NCBI GenBank assembly: GCA_902599575.1
Contig: CACKFS010000002.1
Location: 1-64,000 of the forward strand
Length of the DNA: 64,000 nt
Direction of reading: 5' to 3'
Origin: an uncultured Pelagibacteraceae bacterium
GTDB lineage: Bacteria; Pseudomonadota; Alphaproteobacteria; Pelagibacterales; Pelagibacteraceae
The translations under genes were made by a program, and so were the position numbers. The notes below the pieces were generated by a model. That model ran no database searches and was not told the origin of the DNA. It saw only the letters and a program-made list of their open reading frames with translations. Positions 18,757 to 23,643 of this stretch are shown piece by piece (position 1 is the first letter of the stretch; each line of letters starts with the position of its first letter).

Positions 18757-18832
18757 TGGTGCCCCTTGCCCGACTTGCACGGACGGCTTTTTCCTTACCA
18801 TGGAAATACTCTACTACCTGAGTTAAAGGGGC
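18757..18832 (-). tRNA. tRNA-Thr (anticodon GGU)
   Basis: GCCCCTT TA ACTC AGGTAGTA GAGT A TTTCC ATGGTAA GGAAA AAGCC GTCCG TGCAAGT CGGGC AAGGGGC A CCA; full cloverleaf, encoded CCA. Confidence 0.93.
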
Positions 18833-22723: not shown

Positions 22724-22939
22724 TTGTCAAAGCAAGACTCTTTAGAATTTAAAGGAAAAGTTATAGATCTTTTACCCAATGCAATGTTTAGAGTAAAGCT
22801 GGAAAACAATCATATTGTAACTGCACACACTGCAGGAAAGCTAAGAAAAAACAGAATTAGGGTTTTGCAAGGAGATAACGTTACAGTAGAGGTTACTCCC
22901 TACGATTTAACAAAAGGGCGTATCATATTTAGATTTTAA
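22724..22939 (+). CDS. infA: Translation initiation factor IF-1 (TTG start)
   Basis: 71 aa [51 protein letters not shown]. Confidence 0.95.
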
Positions 22940-22940
22940 T

Positions 22941-23015
22941 GGCCTTGTAGCTCAGTAGTAGAGCAGTACCCTGAAAAGGTATGTGTCGTAAGTGCGATTC
23001 TTACCAAGGCCACCA
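22941..23015 (+). tRNA. tRNA-Phe (anticodon GAA)
   Basis: GGCCTTG TA GCTC AGTAGTA GAGC A GTACC CTGAAAA GGTAT GTGTC GTAAG TGCGATT CTTAC CAAGGCC A CCA. Confidence 0.94.
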
Positions 23016-23566: not shown

Positions 23567-23643
23567 GCACGGGTAGCTCAGTTGGTTAGAGCAGCGGTTT
23601 GTGGAACCGAAGGTCGACAGTTCGAATCTGTCCCCGTGTACCA
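23567..23643 (+). tRNA. tRNA-His (anticodon GUG)
   Basis: GCACGGG TA GCTC AGTTGGTTA GAGC ... TTGTGGA ... GACAG TTCGAAT CTGTC CCCGTGT A CCA. Confidence 0.94.

Follow-up and report, generated by a model that had tools for sequence, protein, structure and literature searches.

An A18/G55 variant of the tRNA elbow in Pelagibacteraceae, coupled at its two positions and recurrent in other lineages

In the usual tRNA elbow, U55, in the form of pseudouridine (Psi55), makes the U-turn of the T-loop; its pairing partner is G18 of the D-loop, which is inserted between R57 and A58. The pair has been described as resting on a universally conserved Psi55, and the T-loop fold as one in which the second residue turns and a foreign base enters between the fourth and the fifth (PMC4810234). 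Rapid translocation has also been linked to the 18-55 pair (Pan et al. 2006, as cited in PMC4810234). In the UGNRA lonepair triloop, the G commonly pairs with an A from outside the loop to give a composite GNRA (PMC2258182). The UGAAA T-loops of the FMN riboswitch hold an intercalated A (PMC3764141), and the aminopyrimidine of TPP lies between G42 and A43 of its riboswitch, bonded to G40 (PMC7824784).

We describe tRNAs in which A18 and G55 replace G18-Psi55, making pseudouridine at position 55 impossible. With the canonical elbow (G18-Psi55, G19-C56, T54-A58) they share the loop sizes, G19-C56, R57, U54-A58 and, probably, the intercalation site of residue 18. With the UGNRA loops of the FMN and TPP riboswitches they share U-G-N-R-A and an outside residue between positions 4 and 5 (A in FMN, the aminopyrimidine in TPP), but here the loop lies inside a tRNA and is joined to the D-loop with G19-C56; the common geometry is suggested by sequence. 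Natural covarying changes of a conserved pair in a subset of tRNAs are also found in eukaryotic tRNA-Ala (PMC7566577), but at 15/48 and 54/58, in combinations that bacteria and archaea reportedly lack; the text of that paper contains neither A18 nor G55 nor 18-55, and positions 18 and 55 are not mentioned in the SAR11 tRNA signature paper (PMC3937112). In the open literature that was searched, there was no report of an A18-G55 pair in a tRNA; artificial precedents are possible, for instance among the selected suppressor tRNAs of the Steinberg group.

Elbow residues of the tRNAs in the window

The window, a stretch of 64,000 nt from an uncultured Pelagibacteraceae bacterium, holds three tRNA genes, Phe, Thr and His (Table 1). 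A first-pass annotation had assigned A18 and G55 to tRNA-Phe from the loops AGTAGTA and TGCGATT, and had claimed the same change for tRNA-Thr and the canonical residues for tRNA-His. With the Phe gene placed by ARAGORN and Rfam, the sequence gave the same readings at all three genes, both changes being present in two of the three tRNAs and neither in the third.

Apart from their lack of G18 and U/Psi55, tRNA-Phe and tRNA-Thr have the features of functional elongators, namely a full cloverleaf, paired stems (acceptor and T stems without a mismatch) and an encoded CCA, and the Rfam bit score of tRNA-Phe is slightly above that of tRNA-His. A decayed pseudogene was ruled out by the intact stems, the Phe score of 68 bits and the recurrence of the variant across the clade. 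The genome to which the window belongs is 53% complete and has 15 tRNAs, among which a third A18/G55 case was found outside the window: tRNA-Val(GAC), with loops AATAGTA and AGCGTAA, which also carries A54/T58. Phe, Thr and Val all retain G19 and C56, as in the canonical elbow. Chance was ruled out by this Val case in the same genome, together with the clade-wide occurrence of A18/G55, in which no mixed state was seen.

Synteny of the Thr-Phe-His tRNA block is kept in most relatives. A putative infA-like open reading frame ends 1 nt before tRNA-Phe, a spacing at which the mRNA and the tRNA are probably cotranscribed.

Table 1. Position and elbow residues of the features discussed (window coordinates unless a contig or locus is named).
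Feature	Position	Strand	Residues and remarks	Source
infA-like gene (presumed)	22724..22939	+		ORF list
tRNA-Phe(GAA)	22941..23015	+	A18/G55 elbow; CCA encoded	ARAGORN; Rfam RF00005, 68 bits; sequence
Phe D-loop	22954..22960	+	AGTAGTA; A14 (22954) G15 T16 A18 (22957) G19 (22958) T20 A21	sequence, parsed
Phe T-loop	22993..22999	+	TGCGATT; T54 (22993) G55 (22994) C56 G57 A58 T59 T60; T54-G55-C56-G57-A58 fits UGNRA	sequence, parsed; UGNRA as defined in PMC2258182
tRNA-Thr(GGT)	18757..18832	-	CCA encoded; D-loop AGGTAGTA, A14 G15 G16 T17 A18 (18815) G19 T20 A21; T-loop TGCAAGT, T54 G55 (18778) C56 A57 A58 G59 T60	ARAGORN; sequence, parsed
tRNA-His(GTG)	23567..23643	+	canonical G18/T55; internal control	ARAGORN; sequence
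tRNA-Val(GAC)	G000:C2:106454-106525 (L014), outside window		A18/G55; swapped A54/T58	
rbfA-rpsO junction without truB, G003 (clade I SAR11)	L680:2480-3200, about 1216380-1217100			

Distribution of A18/G55 in Pelagibacterales

Tiling of the whole genome of a complete relative (G003) allowed all 32 of its tRNAs to be read. A18/G55 was found in three of them, Phe, Thr(GGT) and Val(GAC), and G18/U55 in the other 29. Since the A18/G55 form is the only tRNA-Phe gene among the 32, this elbow must function in the decoding of UUU and UUC by the ribosome. Some Staphylococcus tRNA-Gly species that serve cell wall synthesis also lack the normal elbow residues, and A18/G55 tRNAs could by analogy be specialised for a non-ribosomal task. 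For Phe(GAA), this is refuted by the absence of a spare isoacceptor, and we regard the idea as extremely improbable. No A18/G55 tRNA was found among those read in two genomes of the second family of the order (G009 and G011).

We then surveyed up to 138 Pelagibacterales genomes with patterns that left positions 18 and 55 free, the totals being counted by hand. The A18/G55 and G18/U55 states were found, respectively, in 68 and 55 Phe genes, 88 and 25 Val genes, and 9 and 7 Thr genes. No mixed state was seen in any gene for which both positions were read (123 Phe, 113 Val and 16 Thr). These counts support the proposal of the first-pass annotation that the elbow change covaries within a subset of tRNAs. 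The combinations that it had named as arguing against coupling, A18/U55 or G18/G55 in many SAR11 tRNAs, were sought in dedicated searches of 138 genomes with patterns that cover roughly eight of a genome's 32 tRNAs; neither a non-G18 residue with U55 or C55, nor G18 with G55 or A55, was found. Its view of the extent was too narrow, as Val and occasionally His also have the pair, which extends to many other phyla and to viruses. The His gene, G18/T55 in the window, is A18/G55 in two relatives (G119 and G013).

Up to 14 kb of sequence around tRNA-Phe was taken from 40 relatives, and each tRNA of the Thr-Phe-His block was read. The minimum number of state changes, counted on a tree built from seven neighbouring proteins, was five for Phe, three for Val, two for His and nine for Thr, the last count spanning four elbow states. 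At least five changes in Phe indicate that the coupling is recurrent. The anticodon arm GAGCC CTGAAAA GGCTT is common to both Phe states, and the switch therefore happened within the same gene body. Identical A18/G55 Phe genes also occur in distant SAR11 branches at one syntenic site, as do near-identical Thr genes; because of these, some of the state changes in SAR11 were probably brought about by exchange of tRNA genes and not by mutation at the site. Whether by exchange or mutation, positions 18 and 55 move together. The same identical genes would be expected if the coupling were merely inherited, one odd tRNA lineage having been duplicated or exchanged so that A18 and G55 travelled together without structural cause. 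This explanation is unlikely, given that four SAR11 isotypes with different bodies carry A18/G55, that both Phe states share an anticodon arm, and that the pair is found in unrelated phyla, archaea and many viral isotypes.

Other elbow variants were seen in the Pelagibacter tRNA-Thr(GGT) genes (L547-L577). One has the T-loop GTCAGTA, with G54 and G58; another carries U19 together with A56, apparently a compensatory swap of the G19-C56 pair.

Loss of the Psi55 synthase TruB

The TruB family (PF01509) was found in none of eight tested near-complete genomes of g1, g7 and g8, and in all five tested genomes of g4, g5, g6 and f2; it was also not found in the window's own genome, at 53% completeness. 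In the whole of G003, no TruB homologue was detected with a SAR11 or an E. coli TruB query (best E 0.67), while TruA was found at 1e-41. The order infB-rbfA-rpsO-pnp is conserved in G003 but truB is gone, leaving rbfA and rpsO 7 nt apart (Table 1); truB is present at the same locus in G013, G017 and E. coli. One loss of truB is enough to account for its distribution on the tree, and the gene was apparently lost once. Queries for other modification enzymes in G003 gave no match for TrmA (E. coli query), a single match for MnmG and ambiguous TrmH-like matches.

The A18/G55 form of tRNA-Phe occurs only in the branch lacking TruB. TruB and an A18/G55 tRNA occur side by side in two genomes, G151 (Val) and G013 (His), and strict dependence on TruB loss was ruled out by these two lineages. 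A genome without TruB keeps U55 in 29 of its 32 tRNAs. We suggest that loss of TruB would have lowered the advantage of U55 and may favour the switch to A18/G55, without being required for it.

A18/G55 could alternatively be a sign of relaxed selection and elbow decay in small AT-rich genomes, with position 55 drifting after TruB loss; the absence of TruB in the clade and the unusual variability of its Thr(GGT) elbows speak for this. Drift predicts mixed states, A55 or C55, but none was seen in Phe, Val and Thr or in the mixed-state searches; moreover, the stems are intact and two lineages with TruB carry A18/G55. Decay of this kind is quite unlikely.

Recurrence outside SAR11 and a proposed elbow structure

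Of 386 genomes surveyed in the class, five belong to the SAR11 family; all G55 residues found in this set were in SAR11 and were accompanied by A18. In many other lineages of Alphaproteobacteria (L132-L161), Thr(GGT), Gly and a few other tRNAs had G18 with C55 (T-loop TCCGATT). These resemble the A18/G55 tRNAs in that some of the tRNAs, among them Thr and Gly, have lost U55 and hence Psi55, but with a pyrimidine at 55 they keep G18, and position 18 does not change.

In a collection of 85,000 species, the version of A18/G55 with an 8-nt D-loop gave 101 matches, in Patescibacteria, Omnitrophota, Elusimicrobiota, Mycoplasmatota, DPANN archaea and others. Phe and Thr appeared to be preferred outside SAR11, in a search whose pattern was biased by D-arm sequence; we attach no weight to this trend. 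The tRNA set of an Omnitrophota genome comprised one A18/G55 and 37 G18/U55 tRNAs, and that of a partial Elusimicrobiales genome one and 17, with no mixed state in either. The scored tRNAs of a Nomurabacteria genome were likewise unmixed (four A18/G55 and 24 G18/U55); one further G55 tRNA (Pro) was left open by the parser and has A18 by eye.

Viral matches to the patterns comprised at least 120 A18/G55, 39 A18/U55 and five G18/G55 tRNAs. When tRNAs outside the selection were read on 204 viral contigs, 38 were A18/G55, six A18/Y55, one G18/G55 and 578 G18/Y55 (Fisher p 3e-53 for coupling of 18 and 55, uncorrected for relatedness). All 38 A18/G55 tRNAs, which sit on 12 contigs, have a purine at 57 and C at 56, as UGNRA together with G19-C56 requires. 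In viral tRNAs, G55 is almost always accompanied by A18, whereas a minority of A18 tRNAs do without G55, so that the coupling is strong but not absolute. We conclude that A18/G55 is a real, coupled and recurrent natural variant of the tRNA elbow.

Some tRNA arrays were rich in the pair. It was present in seven of nine tRNAs in an array of Verrucomicrobium (L207:1760-4454), in 11 of 12 in an Akkermansia MAG (L226:756-3230) and in 14 of 15 on a viral contig (L279).

The residues suggest how such an elbow might be built. U54-G55-N56-R57-A58 would form a UGNRA-type T-loop in which G55 makes the turn, like the G of GNRA loops. A18 would intercalate between R57 and A58, where G18 normally does, and pair with G55, so that G55-C56-R57-A18 would make up a composite GNRA tetraloop, with the U54-A58 reverse-Hoogsteen pair closing it. 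The exposed face of the elbow, G19-C56, is retained. G18 would be unsuited to G55, and A18 would be a poor partner for U55; as both combinations should fit badly, intermediates would be disfavoured and positions 18 and 55 would change together. The new elbow would need no pseudouridine and could receive none at position 55, and its function is presumed to equal that of the usual elbow.

In agreement with such a structure, the UGNRA motif at 54-58 is present in Phe (TGCGA) and Thr (TGCAA), and the outside A covaries with the loop G in the SAR11 surveys and in viral tRNAs. Val (AGCGT) lacks the motif; its A54/T58 in place of T54/A58 departs from plain UGNRA and argues against the model. In the Phe and Thr sequences, an antiparallel mini-helix of G19-C56, U20-G55 and A21-U54, with A18 unpaired, could be formed instead, as all three pairs are possible. 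However, A54 of Val cannot pair with A21, the change of residue 18 to A is left without explanation, and U20 is dispensable, as array tRNAs such as the tRNA-Leu of L207 have C20 (AACAGCAG). We consider this contact very unlikely.

The UGNRA geometry was deduced from base identities. We think it probable that both tRNAs, Phe and Thr, serve translation in the ordinary way and that their elbow has adopted a second form, a UGNRA-type, A18-G55 composite GNRA. We also lean, if only slightly, towards a broader reading, that this is a second, general tRNA elbow, a pseudouridine-free composite-GNRA joint of the riboswitch type with many origins in bacteria, archaea and viruses, which has spread in TruB-less SAR11 and become near-universal in some tRNA arrays.

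Few features of tRNA are as highly conserved as the 18-55 contact, and few modifications are as universal as Psi55. The A18/G55 variant ties the elbow of tRNA to the joints that riboswitches build from T-loops. Both sites have been exchanged naturally in an essential tRNA of bacteria that are very abundant in the ocean, and the Psi55 enzyme has been lost in that branch, so that the role of the contact and of the modification can be tested directly.
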